Part shown: positions 13,091-18,648 of the stretch, piece after piece | Layout of the letters: each line of letters starts with the position of its first letter | Position numbering within the stretch: the stretch's first letter is position 1 | Assembly: GCA_025353485.1 (NCBI GenBank) | Contig: JANXQO010000163.1 | Coordinates: 1 to 51,584, forward strand | DNA length: 51,584 nt | From: Chitinophagales bacterium | GTDB lineage: Bacteria; Bacteroidota; Bacteroidia; Chitinophagales; Chitinophagaceae | Direction of reading: 5' to 3' | The notes under the pieces: model-generated | Told to the model about the DNA's origin: nothing | What the model saw: the letters and a program-made list of their open reading frames with translations, nothing else | Databases searched by the model: none | Made by a program: the position numbers and the translations under genes

Positions 13091-13110
13091 AATGAAGTGA
13101 AAGACGATGC

Positions 13111-13127
13111 CGTTGTTGGTCGCCTGA
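13111..13127. repeat. Half of the RAYT-type palindrome, interrupted by a transposon end
   Basis: CGTTGTTGGTCGCCTGA, the left arm and loop of the palindrome seen whole at 13398-13421 and 18615-18638. It is cut at the point where the transposon repeat GGTAACTATATAC starts. Its last 8 bases (TCGCCTGA, 13120-13127) recur at the right end of the element (18046-18053) as target duplication. Confidence 0.85.
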
Positions 13128-13157
13128 GGTAACTATATACGTGTTAGACCACGAAGA
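13128..13157 (+). repeat. Left terminal inverted repeat (outer)
   Basis: 30 bases identical to the reverse complement of 18016-18045; begins GGTAACTATATACGTG and continues TTAGACCACGAAGA. Preceded directly by TCGCCTGA. Confidence 0.9.
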
Positions 13158-13173
13158 GTAAAAAAATGGCAAC

Positions 13174-13386
13174 TCAATAGCCTCCTTTCTTTTTTTTAAT
13201 GAATTTCATGATTTCTGAAATTACAAAAACCATAACCGATAATGCGGTTAATAATGCAACAGGAAAAGCAAATCTTCCAAGAGCTTTATCAAAAAAAACT
13301 AAGAGAATAAAGAATAAACCATTTAGAATTGTAGAATAGTTTGATACCTTTTTCCAAAATTCATATTGTTTCCAAATTTTACTCAT
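13174..13386 (-). CDS. Small two-helix membrane protein, unknown
   Basis: 70 residues with two predicted transmembrane helices (about 20-34 and 38-58) and a basic C-terminus (KFIKKKKGG). No family recognised. It is encoded in the first 260 bp of the element, and its upstream region contains the intact RAYT palindrome 13398-13421. It may be a leftover of a separate insertion. Real expression is uncertain, but the hydrophobic pattern and clean start favour a gene. Confidence 0.5.
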   Translation of the reverse strand: MSKIWKQYEFWKKVSNYSTILNGLFFILLVFFDKALGRFAFPVALLTALSVMVFVISEIMKFIKKKKGGY

Positions 13387-13397
13387 TCGCCGATGCC

Positions 13398-13421
13398 GTT
13401 GTTGGTCGCCTGACCAATAAC
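13398..13421. repeat. Intact RAYT-type palindrome upstream of a decayed RAYT copy
   Basis: GTTGTTGGTC, loop GCCT, GACCAATAAC: one mismatch between arms. Bases 13391-13413 repeat 13105-13127 exactly (23 bp), so the stretch between them is bracketed by a direct repeat. The sequence after it (CTTTTATATTTA) matches the leader of the intact RAYT gene at 18077. Confidence 0.88.
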
Positions 13422-13436
13422 TTTTATATTTACCAG

Positions 13437-13546
13437 ATGATTAGTTTTCGGCATAATTACGCAATTTTTTACCGCTACAAATCTTATTTGGCTTTCCTGT
13501 CTTCAAAATGATTTTCATAAACAAATAGTTATTGAAGCACTAAGAC
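13437..13546 (+). pseudogene. Decayed 5' fragment of the RAYT transposase gene
   Basis: From its ATG to TAAGAC it matches the first about 108 bases of the intact RAYT gene at 18077, including long identical stretches (TTTTTTACCGCTACAAATCT, GGCTTTCCTGTCTTCAAAAT). An extra base within the first dozen codons shifts the frame and a TGA soon follows; similarity stops at 13546. It is a truncated relic of a second palindrome-RAYT unit. Confidence 0.85.
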
Positions 13547-13587
13547 TTTTTATATTTTTTTTTATATTTTAAAGCCTCCGTTGTTGG

Positions 13588-13621
13588 TCGCCTGAGGTAA
13601 CTATATACCTGTTAGACCACG
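13588..13621 (+). repeat. Second left transposon end with its own target copy (inner)
   Basis: TCGCCTGA (13588-13595) followed by 26 bases equal to the outer repeat except one (GGTAACTATATACCTGTTAG). It is again preceded by the arm CGTTGTTGG. The sequence beyond base 26 differs from the outer end. Together with 18016-18053 it could delimit a 4450-bp transposon. Confidence 0.85.
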
Positions 13622-13678
13622 CTCTTATCAATATATGAGGAAAGCATTATATTACACTAATTTTATTCCTCACACCAA

Positions 13679-14119
13679 ATGTATAAGCAACAGAGAATTT
13701 ATTCTATTGTAATAACTTTATTGCATCTGATTTTAGGAACTCTTTTCCTTGCAGGGGGAATAAAAAAAATAAGTCAATATAACACACACGTAGAACCTTT
13801 TTCGTATGCACTTATAATATTTTTCTTTGTATGGGTAGTTTCCTCGGTAGAAAAATTAATAAAATTATTTAATAAGTTAATTACTTCAGATGCACTAAAG
13901 AAAATTTCTATTGCAATACGCCTCCAATCATTTTTAGTTTTTATTTTCATATTTGGTGGAGGTATTGCGGAGTTATCTACTCCTGAACGTAATAGTGTCT
14001 TCGGAAATAACGGAAAAATTATGGGTGTAATTTTTCTGATTTTAGCACTCGTTGAATTGACTTATATTATTTATATCTCACTCTTTATTAAAAAGGTGTC
14101 CAAATTACCGCAGAGTTAA
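13679..14119 (+). CDS. Four-helix membrane protein, cargo of the transposon
   Basis: 146 residues with four predicted transmembrane segments (about 8-27, 41-58, 82-103, 116-137), a short polar loop with IAELSTPERNSVFG between helices 3 and 4, and basic ends. I recognise no family. It starts 58 bp inside the inner transposon end and is transcribed toward the nuclease genes, which face it. Small membrane proteins next to nuclease-type defence genes are sometimes effectors, but here that is only position-based. Confidence 0.65.
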   Translation: MYKQQRIYSIVITLLHLILGTLFLAGGIKKISQYNTHVEPFSYALIIFFFVWVVSSVEKLIKLFNKLITSDALKKISIAIRLQSFLVFIFIFGGGIAELSTPERNSVFGNNGKIMGVIFLILALVELTYIIYISLFIKKVSKLPQS

Positions 14120-14128
14120 AATAAATCT

Positions 14129-14266
14129 TCACGGCTTTTTTTCAACTTTCTTCTTAGCTGGTAATGTTTTAGCGTTTATCGGTTTAGGATTACCCTTTAC
14201 AGATGCAGCCATAATGTTGTGAAAGATGTTTGATGATTCTTTAGCTGATTTTTTAGCTTTTGCCAT
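14129..14266 (-). CDS. Small Lys-rich protein downstream of the DUF262 gene
   Basis: 45 residues, MAKAKKSAKESSNIFHNIM onward, about one quarter Lys, ending KKKVEKKP. It begins 14 bp after the nuclease gene stop on the same strand. The bases before its ATG (TTTACAGTATG) equal those before the ATG of the RHH gene at 16161, hinting at the same translation signals. Too short for a family call; it might be an unrelated basic protein or a partner of the nuclease. The consistent codon pattern and position support a gene. Confidence 0.5.
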   Translation of the reverse strand: MAKAKKSAKESSNIFHNIMAASVKGNPKPINAKTLPAKKKVEKKP

Positions 14267-14279
14267 ACTGTAAAGATAT

Positions 14280-15965
14280 TTAAAGAGTCCACGTTTTCAG
14301 TGCCAATTCAGCTAACTTCTTTTGCCGTTCTTCTATGTTCTTAATACCCCAATTACCTTTAACTTCGCCTAATTGATTGGTTAACTGAAACGATGAATCT
14401 TTATAAAATTTCTGTTTTTCTTCAAAACTTTTATTTCCAGCCTTATCGTTCATTCCTGCTTTCATTAGAACAAGATTTCCTAATCTGTTCAAGTAACCTT
14501 GTGCAGCATCTGGATTAATATGCGACCAATTTTCTGCCAACGATTTTGGCATTATATGTTCGAGATTTATAACCGTATTGCTATTTGGTATCAACTCAGG
14601 ATTAGGTTCATTCCTTGCAGTATTTTCTAATGCTCTTAGATAGTATCGTGCAATTTTTTCTACTCCTACAGAGGCTACCTCAAAATTGGTTTGAAACTCA
14701 GAATCGCTTATAACAATACTCTCAGCACCTTTTTTTAGTTCACTTGTATTCCTTATTTCCTTTTTATAAATCTTATTAGCAAGTTTTGAATATCCCTCAT
14801 CAAGTCTGCCACCCCTAATACCAAGTACCATAAATCTAACTGACCATGATATAAGTTTTTTAAAAGCGGAGCCAGTTTCCTTTTCATTAAAATACATACC
14901 AATACAAAGCATAAGAGGACGAATTTGTGTAACTCCTAACAGATTCATTATTGATATGGATTCTCTAACATCATTTGGATAGTCATTCCACCTTTGGTGT
15001 TCGGGATTTAAAATTGCGGAATAAACTTTACTAAGTTCTTCCAAAATAGAAAGTACATGTAATGCTTGGGATTTGTTCTTTGATAGGTCTTGAATTTTTT
15101 GAAAAACTTCTTTTTTTGTCGTTATGCCTTCCATAATAACACAGCCAGCTCTTAGGAAATCCATTGTTATATCGTCATCAGTATCTGAAATTGTTTCAAT
15201 GGAACTTTTTAGCGACGACCAAAGATTTTGAGCCTCATCTAATCTATTTGCCGCCATTCTAAAAAGATGATTTTTAACTAAATCAGCTTGTGAAGTTTTT
15301 AGTCCTCTATCATTCAATGTTTCAAATAAAGTAAATGCTGTTTCTTCATTTTTTACTACAAGTTTCACAACCCTAACTTTAACCTTCAAAAATTCAATCA
15401 ATTCAATCAAATATTGTTTTGTATAAGTTTCACCGTTTTGTTTTTCAATAGCTTCTATATATTCTTTAATTGAGCCAAATGCAGCAGCGATCAAATGGTG
15501 CGACCTCCTAACAGGATTAACTTTTTTTCGGTTATGTTTTTTTAGAACGACATTATGTATAAAAAAATCGTTGTCATCTAAATTTAGTGTAAGACGGCTA
15601 ATATCGTCGTCCTTAGCCATATCGTATGAACTTAGAAAATGATTTTCTATAGCCTGAACATTTTTTGCCAATCCCTTTGTTACAAACCAATCCCTAATTG
15701 CCGCTATAACCATAGTTGTTGTTGCAAGCCTTTGTTGACCATCTGCAATTTCAAGAATATTCTTTTGGTTCCTGGTTAAAACAATAGTACCAAGAAAATA
15801 AGATTGCTTCTCATTAAGTATTGCTTTATTTATGTCTTGTAAATAGTTCTTGACTTGCAAATCTTTTGTCCATGAGTACTCCCTTTGGTTAGAAGGGACA
15901 GTTAGAATATCCCTTTTAATCATTTCTGCTATGCCTAAAACATCAAATTCTATATCATCTTGCAT
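14280..15965 (-). CDS. DUF262-DUF1524 protein, GmrSD-like modification-dependent restriction enzyme
   Basis: 561 residues. N-terminal DUF262 domain: QREYSW (27-32) and DGQQR (75-79), the ParB/sulfiredoxin-like nucleotide-binding motifs, with FETLNDRGL at about 214-222. C-terminal DUF1524 HNH-type nuclease: LEHIMPKS (about 468-475), then LNRLGNLVL (about 492-500) and GNKSFEEK. In known members (GmrSD, SspE and relatives) this combination cuts modified phage DNA with nucleotide dependence. Here both domains are in one chain. The start overlaps the RHH gene by 11 bp, so they are co-translated. Cargo of the IS1595-type element. Target modification unknown. Confidence 0.85.
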   Translation of the reverse strand: MQDDIEFDVLGIAEMIKRDILTVPSNQREYSWTKDLQVKNYLQDINKAILNEKQSYFLGTIVLTRNQKNILEIADGQQRLATTTMVIAAIRDWFVTKGLAKNVQAIENHFLSSYDMAKDDDISRLTLNLDDNDFFIHNVVLKKHNRKKVNPVRRSHHLIAAAFGSIKEYIEAIEKQNGETYTKQYLIELIEFLKVKVRVVKLVVKNEETAFTLFETLNDRGLKTSQADLVKNHLFRMAANRLDEAQNLWSSLKSSIETISDTDDDITMDFLRAGCVIMEGITTKKEVFQKIQDLSKNKSQALHVLSILEELSKVYSAILNPEHQRWNDYPNDVRESISIMNLLGVTQIRPLMLCIGMYFNEKETGSAFKKLISWSVRFMVLGIRGGRLDEGYSKLANKIYKKEIRNTSELKKGAESIVISDSEFQTNFEVASVGVEKIARYYLRALENTARNEPNPELIPNSNTVINLEHIMPKSLAENWSHINPDAAQGYLNRLGNLVLMKAGMNDKAGNKSFEEKQKFYKDSSFQLTNQLGEVKGNWGIKNIEERQKKLAELALKTWTL

Positions 15966-16161
15966 CGATTTCTGGTTTTAATGAAACTGGTTTTAAAAAT
16001 AGAATTTTTTCTCCTGCATCTTGTAGTTCTTTTATTGCAGCACTTCTTAATCGTTCCCGAGCCCATGCTGAAAAACCAATACCACTTAATTCAGCAGCTC
16101 TCTTAAAGGAGCTTTTTTCATCTTCAGAAAGTTTTATTAGTACTTGTGTGTCTTTTTTCAT
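15955..16161 (-). CDS. Ribbon-helix-helix-type DNA-binding protein, upstream partner of the nuclease
   Basis: 68 residues from the ATG at 16161; a longer frame to 16272 would run through the tandem operator repeats and is rejected. The sequence TQVLIKLSEDEKSSFKRAAELSGIGFSAWARERLRSAA has the strand-helix-helix spacing of MobC/CopG-like RHH proteins. It overlaps the DUF262 gene by 11 bp. Four GTATATA repeats directly upstream are its probable binding sites, so I infer that it represses its own operon, keeping the nuclease low, as antitoxin-type RHH proteins do. Confidence 0.75.
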   Translation of the reverse strand: MKKDTQVLIKLSEDEKSSFKRAAELSGIGFSAWARERLRSAAIKELQDAGEKILFLKPVSLKPEIDAR

Positions 16162-16166
16162 ACTGT

Positions 16167-16231
16167 AAAAGTATATATAAAGTATATATAAAACAAAATT
16201 TAATTTGGAAAGTATATATAAAGTATATACC
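16167..16231. promoter_or_regulatory. Four-site operator with 11-bp spacing between RHH gene and transposase
   Basis: GTATATA occurs at 16171, 16182, 16212 and 16223: two pairs, each with 11-bp (one helical turn) spacing, embedded in AAAGTATATATAAAGTATAT. The repeats lie between the divergent RHH-nuclease operon and the transposase gene, so one regulator could control both. Direct tandem short repeats of this spacing are typical RHH operators. Confidence 0.65.
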
Positions 16232-16252
16232 TTTATTGAATAATTAAAAATC

Positions 16253-17179
16253 ATGAAAACATTCAAAAGCATTTTAGAATTTCAAAAGCATTTTAACAGC
16301 GAAGGAAAATGCAGGGAATATTTAGAGCAACAACGTTGGAGCGGTACACCTGCTTGTCCTTTTTGTGGTTCTTTAAATGTTTGCCGTTTCACCAATGGTA
16401 AAATATTTAAGTGCAGGGAAAAACAATGTAGAAGTAAATTCAGCGCAACAGTTGGAACTATTTATGAGAACACAAAAATTCCTTTAACCAAATGGTTTCT
16501 TGCAACATATATTTTAGCTGTACACAGCAAAGGGATTTCTTCTTTACAACTTGCTACATGGTTAGGCGTTACTCAAAAAACTGCATGGCATTTAAACCAT
16601 CGTATTAGGCAAATGCTGACTAATAACGCTCCCGAATTATTGGAGGGAATAGTAGAAGTAGATGAAAGCTACATCGGCGGAAAAGAATCTAATAAACATG
16701 CTCACAAAAGAACTGTAAAAGGTGGTACAGGAAATAAAACTATGGTCATAGGTGCTGTTGAAAGAGGCGGCAAAGTGAAAACTAAAGTTATTCCTAAAAC
16801 TGATATTGCTAACATCAATCAAACGCTTGAAGAATTTGTAAAGGTTGATAGCATTATGGTAACAGATGAACACCATGCTTATAACAAGGTGCATCTTACA
16901 TATACTCACAGAACTATTAACCACAGGGAGAAAGAGTATGTAAGAAAGGAAGAAGATTTTTTAATACACACTAATAACATCGAAGGTTTTTGGAACATAC
17001 TAAAAAAACAGATCAACGGCATACATCATTCAGTTAGTGCAAAGCATTTACAACGCTATTGTAATGAATCTGCTTTCAGATATAATAGAAGAAAGATATT
17101 TCAAGATGAAAGATTTGCAAATGCTTTATCTAATTGCCATGGTACATTAAAATATAAAGTCTTAACAGCAGAAAAATGA
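16253..17179 (+). CDS. IS1595-family (ISXO2-like) transposase
   Basis: 308 residues. N-terminal zinc ribbon CPFC (35-38) and CREKQC (54-59), then a helix-turn-helix region (SSLQLATWLGVTQKTAWHLNHRIR, about 96-119) and the DDE-type catalytic core: VDESYIGGK (Asp about 137), VTDEHHAY (Asp about 205), HTNNIEGFWNILKKQ (about 239-252). Length and motif order are those of intact IS1595 transposases, which give 8-bp target duplications and often carry passenger genes. The stop overlaps the next ATG (ATGA) so an XRE gene is coupled to it. Confidence 0.93.
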   Translation: MKTFKSILEFQKHFNSEGKCREYLEQQRWSGTPACPFCGSLNVCRFTNGKIFKCREKQCRSKFSATVGTIYENTKIPLTKWFLATYILAVHSKGISSLQLATWLGVTQKTAWHLNHRIRQMLTNNAPELLEGIVEVDESYIGGKESNKHAHKRTVKGGTGNKTMVIGAVERGGKVKTKVIPKTDIANINQTLEEFVKVDSIMVTDEHHAYNKVHLTYTHRTINHREKEYVRKEEDFLIHTNNIEGFWNILKKQINGIHHSVSAKHLQRYCNESAFRYNRRKIFQDERFANALSNCHGTLKYKVLTAEK

Positions 17180-17385
17180 GAAACGATACTTTTTTAAAAG
17201 AGATGGGCAAAAAGATAAGGGCTGCACGTAATGAAAAAAAACTTACGCTACGTGAATTAGGTGTACTGTGTAATTTGGGACATGATGCAATTTCACGAAT
17301 TGAACTTGGTCAAAAAGATAGCCATATACTTACATTAAAAAATATTGCTGATAAATTGAATGTTGATGTAAAAGATTTTCTTTAA
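17176..17385 (+). CDS. XRE-family helix-turn-helix regulator
   Basis: 69 residues that are just one HTH_3 domain: MGKKIRAARNEKKLTLRELG, then LGHDAISRIELGQ and NIADKLNVDVKDFL. Its ATG overlaps the transposase stop, suggesting coupled translation, so a role in controlling transposition is likely. Its stop overlaps by 4 bp, tail to tail, the stop of the HicA-like gene on the other strand. Confidence 0.88.
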   Translation: MRNDTFLKEMGKKIRAARNEKKLTLRELGVLCNLGHDAISRIELGQKDSHILTLKNIADKLNVDVKDFL

Positions 17386-17651
17386 TAATCTGGGTAATGC
17401 CTTTTCTTAATTTCTTCGGTAAATTCTTCCATGTGTTTACATTCATTCGGAATAGGAACTCCTAATTGGCAACACATTTTACAAACGGAGTAATCCTTTA
17501 CTGGCTTATCATTTATCGGAGTTGTGTAATAAATAAAGCGTTTTGTTTTTGGATTGGTAATTTTTACTGAATTACCACGTAAATCATCACTGAGCGGCTC
17601 GACATCGCACTTGTTAACAACAAACCAGTCGTAAACGTCTTCCCTTGTCAT
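17382..17651 (-). CDS. Divergent HicA-position protein with Cys cluster
   Basis: 89 residues, overlapping the upstream hicB-like gene by 4 bp (ATGA). It has the size and strand pattern expected of a HicA toxin (short helix, then GNSVKITNPKTKRFIYY) but lacks the GSHHxF catalytic His motif. Unusually it has DYSVCKMCCQLGVPIPNEC, four Cys within 15 residues, suggesting a metal site, and ends KKRHYPDY. It may be a modified toxin, an inactive partner or an unrelated small protein. Identification rests mainly on its HicB neighbour. Confidence 0.6.
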   Translation of the reverse strand: MTREDVYDWFVVNKCDVEPLSDDLRGNSVKITNPKTKRFIYYTTPINDKPVKDYSVCKMCCQLGVPIPNECKHMEEFTEEIKKRHYPDY

Positions 17652-17899
17652 GCCATCGCAAATTCAAAACTTTTTGTAATAACCTTTCCGTAATTGGAAG
17701 CGTGATTATTCTGTAATTCAGAATTTTTCTGATGCTCAAATGACACTCGTAATAATCTTAGGAGATTTTGAGACGCATCTTCCTGAGTATCTCCTTCAGC
17801 AATAATATTGGGAAACTGGGCAAAAAATGCAGTATATCCTTTTGATTTGGGATCTTCAACAAATATTCCCGTAAGATTGAATTTATTGGTTGTTTCCAT
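17648..17899 (-). CDS. HicB-family antitoxin
   Basis: 83 residues with the HicB partial RNase H-like fold: GYTAFFAQFPNIIAEGDTQEDASQNLLRLL is the hallmark strand-helix unit. HicB proteins neutralise the HicA mRNA interferase and often repress their own promoter. There is no extra DNA-binding domain at the C-terminus; it ends KSFEFAMA. It is the first gene of a two-gene unit inside the transposon; the AT-rich 120 bp before it (17900-18015) would contain the promoter. Confidence 0.82.
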   Translation of the reverse strand: METTNKFNLTGIFVEDPKSKGYTAFFAQFPNIIAEGDTQEDASQNLLRLLRVSFEHQKNSELQNNHASNYGKVITKSFEFAMA

Positions 17900-18015
17900 T
17901 GTGAGAAGTTTTTATTTACAACGCTAATATAATAGTAAATATTTTAGTAATCTTTAGCAATAATGATAAATTTTATATAATACTCAAATTGAGTAGTTGC
18001 AAATATCAATCCATT

Positions 18016-18053
18016 TCTTCGTGGTCTAACACGTATATAGTTACCTCGCCTGA
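18016..18053 (-). repeat. Right terminal inverted repeat and target duplication
   Basis: Bases 18016-18045 are the exact reverse complement of 13128-13157; 18046-18053 are TCGCCTGA, equal to 13120-13127 and 13588-13595. After the target copy the palindrome arm continues CCAACAT and leads into the RAYT leader. Confidence 0.9.
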
Positions 18054-18076
18054 CCAACATATTTTATATTTATCAC

Positions 18077-18598
18077 ATGATTCGCTTCCAACATCATACA
18101 CAATTTTTTACCGCTACAAATCTTAATTGGCTTTCCTGTCTTCAAAATGATTTTCATAAACAAATAGTTATTGAAGCGCTAAGACATCGTGTAAAAAATA
18201 ATGAGCTAACTGTGAACGCCTTTGTAATAATGCCTAATCATATTCACTGTATATGGCAAATACATGATTCCGTTAGGAGGGAAGAATTTCAAAGAGATTT
18301 TTTGAAATTTACCGCAAGAAGCATTTTAAAATTTATGCTTATGAATGATGATCCTTTACTCCTAAAGTTAAAAGTGTCTGCCAAGGATAGGAAACAACAG
18401 GTATGGGAAAGAAATTCATTAAGTATAGATTTATTTACAGAGGAAGTCTTTTTTCAAAAACTTAATTATATTCATAACAATCCGCTGCAGCCAAAGTGGC
18501 AATTAGCAGTTACACCAGAAGATTACTTTTATAGCAGTGCCGCATTTTATGAAAAAGGAATAAATGATTTTGACCTATTAACTCATTATAAAGATTAA
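18077..18598 (+). CDS. REP-associated tyrosine transposase (RAYT)
   Basis: 173 residues of the Y1/HUH transposase family: MPNHIHCIW carries the HUH metal-binding pair (His 55 and 57), and FFQKLNYIHNNPLQPKW carries the probable catalytic Tyr (about 131), followed by the RAYT-type YFYSSAAFY. RAYT enzymes nick and move small REP palindromes without being mobile themselves. Here palindromes of the GTTGTTGGTC type lie on both sides in opposite loop orientation (upstream one split by the transposon; downstream 18615-18638), the classical RAYT layout. The transposon insertion 31 bp before its start may have changed its promoter. Confidence 0.9.
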   Translation: MIRFQHHTQFFTATNLNWLSCLQNDFHKQIVIEALRHRVKNNELTVNAFVIMPNHIHCIWQIHDSVRREEFQRDFLKFTARSILKFMLMNDDPLLLKLKVSAKDRKQQVWERNSLSIDLFTEEVFFQKLNYIHNNPLQPKWQLAVTPEDYFYSSAAFYEKGINDFDLLTHYKD

Positions 18599-18614
18599 AG
18601 TTGCTTAAGAAGAA

Positions 18615-18638
18615 GTTGTTGGTCAGGCGACCAACAAC
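18615..18638. repeat. RAYT-type palindrome, downstream copy
   Basis: GTTGTTGGTC, loop AGGC, GACCAACAAC: 10-bp perfect arms. The loop is the complement of the GCCT loop upstream of the gene, so the two flanking palindromes are inverted relative to one another. Confidence 0.92.
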
Positions 18639-18648
18639 GGCGAAAAGA

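Follow-up and report, generated by a model that had tools for sequence, protein, structure and literature searches.

How a transposon with passenger genes picks its landing site is the question raised by a locus in a Chitinophagales bacterium (contig JANXQO010000163.1 of assembly GCA_025353485.1). The window, the 51,584-nt stretch that we analysed and whose positions serve as coordinates below, holds an IS1595-family passenger transposon, the intact unit of which is most likely 13596-18045. Our reading, to which we give a probability of about three in four, is that this element, equipped with its own DDE transposase, inserts into the loops of stem-loops of the repetitive extragenic palindrome (REP) type. 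Taken directly from the sequence comparisons are the ends of the element, its target duplication, an empty site, loop placement in 13 of 14 copies, a conserved core and swapped cargo.

The insertion site in the window is a REP lying between a GNAT gene and a gene for a REP-associated tyrosine transposase (RAYT). TCGCCTGA is the loop of this REP hairpin, and such hairpins flank the RAYT gene, with inverted orientation on its two sides. The RAYT assignment (18077-18598) draws on the motifs NHIH, WQ and YIHNNP and the flanking hairpins, together with matches below cut-off to NCBIfam REP_Tyr_transpos (70.2 bits, cut-off 80) and Pfam Y1_Tnp (20.4 bits, cut-off 23).

In a congeneric genome (G1114), locus L182 keeps this neighbourhood and has no element separating GNAT from RAYT: the genes for malic enzyme, amidohydrolase and GNAT (79% identity) are followed by an intact CATTGTTGGTCGCCTGACCAATAAC and then by RAYT (87%) and ALDH. 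By this alignment of gene order and flanks, L182 is a natural empty site of the element. Within the genus, the ALDH gene was found in five of 20 genomes, the window's own counted, and among the four others a RAYT match at the locus was found in L182 only. The initial annotation, made from the window sequence, had proposed a search for empty sites with an uninterrupted palindrome without seeing that the palindrome itself is the target rule; L182 provides such a site.

Relatives of the element and their insertion sites

Relatives in other Bacteroidota have the same ends at different sites. In 18 loci of named genomes (loci carry L numbers, genomes G numbers), the transposases are 57-80% identical in 15, 52% in one and 37-38% in two, and further relatives occur beyond these. 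Both ends lie on one contig in 11 elements (window, L037-L041, L044, L045, L046, L062 and L063), which span 2.8-5.9 kb, and for two more (L051/L140 and L071/L042) the ends were matched up between contigs. The duplication is 8 bp in 13 of the 14 clade elements with two flanks and 7 bp in L045. The view that the window holds a self-contained IS1595-type element is thereby supported, since the same ends recur elsewhere with other flanks, other cargo and duplications of 7-8 bp; the search of related genomes for same-ended elements, also proposed at the outset, likewise found them joined to different flanks. Windows A and B count as one element, and one-ended rows (L043, L047, L160, L162 and L174, the single end of the last being doubtful with five mismatches) as well as L163, which has no end, stand outside the counts. 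The single flank of L043 is compatible with a hairpin site, and those of L160 and L162 lack the T...A form described below.

Both flanks are known for 14 copies in bacterial genomes (on contigs of bacterial assemblies), and in 13 of them the duplicated 7-8 bp are the loop of a stem-loop. The stems are perfect over 5-11 bp in 12 copies and imperfect in L038, and their sequences are unrelated (TGTTGG, CGTTGTTG, TGGTTCG, GTTCG, TTACTTTTTG, GTCCTTTTTG and TTCTTTTG). At random positions in the same loci, taken at the same offsets, stems of 5 bp or longer occur in 1.5%. Among distant IS1595 loci, ends were found in 23 of 28 (L064 included though its ends are uncertain; L141, L142, L145, L159 and L050 have none), and one of these 23 elements, L153, has a hairpin site, with a stem of 9 at an offset of 1. 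The difference between 13/14 and 1/23 gives a Fisher p of 5e-8; under a strict rule, which asks for a perfect stem of 5 bp or longer (12/14 versus 1/23), p is 6e-7.

The transposase tree joins 11 hairpin copies that have both flanks with the partial rows L042, L043 and L051 in a 14-row clade supported at 100/100. L047 branches directly outside it, followed by a group of L048, L049, L064 and L066; here the sites of L048 and L066 are clearly not hairpins, L064 has uncertain ends, and a search for the ends of L049 found none.

Shape or sequence of the target

Because stems of unrelated sequence are used, we infer recognition by hairpin structure, and the landing site may be chosen by hairpin shape. 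The DDE transposase would move the element by cut-and-paste and, perhaps with the XRE protein or the small peptide encoded beside it, would recognise a stem-loop closed by G-T...A-C; the recognised target would be an extruded or single-stranded hairpin, and REP loops would serve as harmless docking sites.

The strongest rival has sequence (G-T-N6-A-C or particular REP families) as the basis of target choice, with the hairpin incidental because REPs are palindromic, and we put it somewhat below even odds. The duplication ends in T...A at 12 of 13 hairpin sites and is flanked by G and C at 13 of 13, RAYT REPs and TCAAG repeats recur, and another abundant repeat is occupied by L173 and by the distant IS1595 elements L144, L146 and L149. 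Set against this, the sequence common to the stems is limited to one or two base pairs, and a hairpin without T...A is present in L051/L140.

Besides this terminal consensus, several observations weigh against choice by hairpin. L038 counts as a hairpin through imperfect pairing (perfect stem 4, 9/12 paired; the best outgroup element, L157, reaches 7/12), and the stem of L062 is offset by 1-2 nt. A search made after the hairpin rule was formed yielded two new copies, one in G1136 (L173) and a second in G1087 (L174). L173 (5356-9561; outside the tree, transposase 77% identical to that of the window) has its duplication ACAAGAGT outside any hairpin loop, and its site AAGAGTGCGACGCAA is a form of the 15-mer TTGCGTCGCACNCTT, found 104 times in G1136 (control 0). 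As the sole full test after the rule was formed, L173 speaks against a strict hairpin rule and for a wider one of abundant repeats. The phage-contig copy L161 (276-4241, duplication AGCAATTC) lies in an ordinary site and not in a hairpin. Given L173 and L161, the hairpin is a strong preference of the element, not a strict need. Finally, only some hosts have the TCAAG-type repeat clearly in excess of control, and the host repeats are partly related between genomes, so that the sites are not all independent.

Target repeats in the host genomes

The repeat nature of the hairpin was checked in the window, G173, G241 and G1066. RAYT-flanking hairpins are present in several genomes, and one in G173, TTGGTTCGTGTCCCCACGAACCAA, matches the L044 site at 23 of 24 bases. 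A RAYT lies beside the element in four of 14 copies (window, L044, L045 and L071/L042; L173 was outside this check). The TTTTTGTnTCAAGACAAAAA class, counted with up to 3 mismatches, is clearly above control in G1066 (22 versus 8), G241 (12 versus 2) and G197 (6 versus 1), with little or no excess in the other 12 of 15 genomes (for example G1065 10 versus 7, G945 7 versus 5, G404 5 versus 5 and G1039 3 versus 5). For L063, the element of G241, we detected two empty repeat copies with left flanks equal to its own over the 60 bases shown.

A longer repeat unit ending in the TTTTTGTnTCAAGACAAAAA hairpin is common to Chitinophagaceae and Mucilaginibacter genomes (L127-L139 and L063); RAYT is absent from the fetched stretches except in L139, where it lies about 4 kb off. 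Rfam at the gathering threshold, run on nine loci, matched DUF805 RNA and tRNA in L063 only and nothing at the target repeats. The 15-mer TTGCGTCGCACNCTT is also abundant elsewhere (1212 copies in G063, 884 in G058, 256 in G068, 153 in G004 and 152 in G249; control 0), in G063 often as inverted pairs about 50-140 bp apart by eye.

Limits of the element

The initial annotation had drawn the element as 13128-18045. The perfect 30-bp inverted repeat on which it relied (13128-13157 and 18016-18045) is real, and TCGCCTGA does adjoin both of these ends. Overlooked were a third end copy at 13596-13621, which also adjoins TCGCCTGA, an internal palindrome and a RAYT fragment; with these, the left end at 13128 becomes doubtful, 13596 is the better candidate, and 13128-18045 is the less likely unit. 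A 20-mer from the ends occurs three times in its own genome, all here (control 0), so that two units are possible, 13128-18045 and 13596-18045. Because the hairpin that has TCGCCTGA as its loop is repeated, any two insertions into such repeats are expected to show matching flanks, and the duplication by itself is weak evidence for an element; proof of the limits from direct repeats alone was therefore rejected.

Between the two left ends (Table 1) lie a 70-aa open reading frame (ORF) matching no Pfam family, a complete palindrome (13402-13417) and a truncated copy of RAYT, its DNA 97% identical to 18097-18185. The outer left end matches the right end over 30 bp and the inner one at 25 of 26 positions, diverging beyond, as would fit a mobile unit of 13128-18045 that had captured a REP, the RAYT fragment and the inner end. 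We think this unlikely: the extra 468 bp include a fragment of RAYT and a complete target REP, thus host-type flanking DNA; solo ends with REP halves exist in L182; and a single mismatch in 24 between the two ends, as in 13596-18045 (23/24 identical), is also seen in L046 and L063, with three in L045. The two solo ends of L182 lie 3' of its RAYT (8716 and 9107), each adjoining a REP half and a fragment of the SNIFHNIM peptide gene, and L182 8435-9107 apparently represents relics of repeated insertion at one RAYT locus. Since L182 holds comparable solo ends, 13128-13390 is likely a relic with a solo end, the outer left end is probably that of an older, deleted insertion, and 13596-18045 is likely the intact unit. 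Homology has no power to choose between the left ends, as blastn of 13158-13390 and 13622-14128 against all other fetched loci gave zero matches.

Table 1. Features in and around the transposon of the window
Feature	Position	Strand	Evidence
Half REP hairpin ending in TCGCCTGA, adjoins IRL1	13105-13127	+	direct-repeat family D2
Outer left end (IRL1)	13128-13157	+	perfect 30-bp match to right end
70-aa ORF, hydrophobic stretches (by eye), in probable relic 13128-13390	13174-13386	-	ORF list
Intact REP with palindrome TTGGTCGCCTGACCAA (13402-13417)	13391-13417	+	repeat analysis
Truncated RAYT copy	13453-13545	+	90% over residues 6-36
Half REP hairpin adjoining IRL2	13573-13595	+	target duplication = 13588-13595
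Most likely intact transposon, 4,450 bp	13596-18045	.	inverted repeats enclosing the core genes, TCGCCTGA at either end
Left terminal inverted repeat (IRL2)	13596-13621	+	direct-repeat family D4 and inverted repeat I2
146-aa ORF, hydrophobic (by eye), cargo	13679-14119	+	ORF list, Pfam scan
45-aa SNIFHNIM basic peptide, core gene	14129-14266	-	matches in clade elements
Single-chain GmrSD-type (DUF262-DUF1524) nuclease, cargo	14280-15965	-	Pfam GmrSD_N/GmrSD_C; PADLOC HEC-06
74-aa RHH/RelB-like regulator, overlaps nuclease gene start	15955-16179	-	NikA-like 22.9 bits, RelB 19.1 bits
IS1595 transposase, zinc ribbon and DDE	16253-17179	+	Pfam, NCBIfam, catalytic residues
69-aa XRE protein, overlaps transposase stop, core gene	17176-17385	+	HTH_3 37 bits
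89-aa partner of HicB-like protein	17382-17651	-	48% identical protein in L147
83-aa HicB-like protein (weak)	17648-17899	-	UPF0150 12.3 bits
Right terminal inverted repeat	18016-18045	-	inverted-repeat match
Remaining half of split REP hairpin: TCGCCTGA (duplication) and CCAACA	18046-18059	+	flank comparison
RAYT	18077-18598	+	NCBIfam REP_Tyr_transpos 70.2 bits and motifs
Intact REP hairpin 3' of RAYT, inverted orientation	18613-18641	-	palindrome search

Core genes and cargo

The transposase proved as intact as first described: its DDE domain scores 138 bits in Pfam (cut-off 27) and 192 bits in NCBIfam (cut-off 75), its N-terminal zinc ribbon 39 bits in Pfam (cut-off 25.4), and Cys 35/38/54/59 of the ribbon are present along with D137, D205 and E244. 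The XRE protein and the SNIFHNIM peptide gave translated-DNA matches in all 14 bacterial-genome clade elements and in phage copy L161; in L041 the peptide is encoded directly 3' of XRE, as in the sister elements L048 and L066. On these sequence matches, the transposase, the overlapping XRE gene and the peptide are the core genes. The XRE gene had been correctly identified and wrongly counted as cargo, and the 45-residue basic protein, also taken for cargo, belongs to the core.

P63C proteins matched in seven of the 14 bacterial-genome elements and in L161. In several elements (L037, L038, L044, L063, L160, L161 and L173), a short zinc-ribbon protein that resembles the transposase N-terminus and lacks the DDE part adjoins a P63C-type protein, calls that rest on profiles for L037 and L063 and on similarity or eye for the remainder. 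This extra zinc-ribbon protein was considered as the setter of the target and rejected, the window, L039 and L040 elements having no such ORF.

Comparison between copies revealed that cargo differs from element to element, and by sequence it has been swapped between elements that share the core. The GmrSD-type nuclease was found in the window alone among clade elements. L037 carries an ATPase and a partner resembling PDC-M29A/B (137 and 45 bits), and L039 and L045 have in common a two-gene module with one protein PIN-like by eye, a profile scan of the L039 pair matching neither protein. L039 additionally encodes an aspartyl protease with SEC-C, L040 a SecB-like protein and L044 an Endonuc_Holl protein.

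The annotated DUF262-DUF1524 nuclease is indeed present (Pfam GmrSD_N 102 bits, GmrSD_C 95 bits), with GmrS-like and GmrD-like domains in one protein. Its defence function is inferred from sequence: the GmrSD-like protein would be a type IV restriction enzyme that cuts modified phage DNA. That the gene is instead a stabilising or regulatory passenger seems to us rather improbable; eight of ten scanned cargo proteins of relatives have no PADLOC match, as such a passenger role would allow, and on the other side stand the 527-bit match of the nuclease to PADLOC HEC-06, its intact NQREYSW, DGQQR, LEHIMP and RLGNL motifs and the PDC-M29A/B-like pair of L037. A GmrSD-like protein (26% identity) also adjoins a distant IS1595 transposase in G127 (L145, 7958-9586); ends sought for that element were not found.

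The ribbon-helix-helix (RHH) protein annotated with the nuclease exists as a gene, and a 60% identical protein occurs in L047; its assignment to RHH is weak, with both NikA-like (22.9 bits, cut-off 27) and RelB (19.1 bits) below cut-off. The supposed HicB pair does not qualify as HicAB, as the HicB-like protein reaches 12.3 bits with UPF0150 (cut-off 27.3) and no HicA model from the Pfam and NCBIfam profiles matched among the window proteins. The roles in the description as a defence island with a toxin-antitoxin pair are read from profile matches, for toxin-antitoxin from a sub-threshold one. The HicB-like and 89-aa pair recurs within a distant IS1595 element (L147 6049-6541; 63% and 48% identity).

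Phage copies and persistence of insertions

Close relatives were detected on IMG/VR phage contigs (L160, L161 and L162). L161 adjoins ORFs resembling phage head genes by eye, and L160 also has a module of two genes, HEPN-like by eye. A plasmid search returned 129 matching records, all below 60% identity and hence none a close relative.

Hairpin placement as a survival effect, in which only insertions into spare intergenic repeats persist, is very improbable: REPs are intergenic, so that insertion should cost little, and the phage copy sits elsewhere, yet a survival effect would not make the duplication coincide exactly with the loop, and such placement is seen in 1/23 of the distant IS1595 elements, most of which come from the same bacterial family.

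Returning to insertion into REP-type loops, we put forward tentatively a wider version, possible and short of likely, in which the DDE transposase would select by DNA shape and insert at hairpin centres regardless of stem sequence, and a defence-carrying family would settle in the RAYT/REP loops of various Bacteroidota and travel from host to host on phages. The elements show a route by which nuclease modules may shuffle between hosts on units of about 3-6 kb.

Comparison with known systems

An 8-bp target duplication is typical of the IS1595 family, and Siguier et al. are said to have described members with passenger genes in 2009. The window element resembles the family in its zinc ribbon and DDE transposase, GG-ended inverted repeats, 8-bp duplications and passenger genes; this clade differs in its sites in REP-type hairpin loops and its constant XRE protein and SNIFHNIM peptide. 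Among the matches listed, titles and abstract openings held no description of hairpin or REP-loop targeting by IS1595. The nuclease is like GmrSD type IV restriction enzymes and PADLOC HEC-06 in joining both domains in a single chain, and unlike them in being carried within an IS1595 transposon beside a weakly RHH-like partner.

IS1016 is presumably a member of the IS1595 family. The table of Tobes and Pareja (2006, PMC1525189) gives REP association for 2 of 17 IS1016 copies and 1 of 3 IS1016C2 copies. The REP-targeting insertion sequences named there belong to the IS3, IS110, IS4, IS256 and IS5 families; the window element is like them in entering repetitive palindromes at a fixed position, and unlike them in that IS1595 is not among these five. 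The neighbouring RAYT fits the table pattern of Bacteroidetes subclass 2.6 (NHIH...WQ...YIHNNP with flanking hairpins; table of PMC6006769). In comparison with subclass 2.6 systems, the RAYT here belongs with the target repeat and is not the enzyme of the mobile element. Two repeat-associated systems, RAYT/REP and IS1595, are linked here, and the case is a compact and testable one of a transposase with a landing site seemingly set by hairpin geometry. REP-targeting insertion sequences and passenger-carrying IS1595 elements are already known; judged by the matches listed, hairpin-loop targeting by IS1595 would be the new part.

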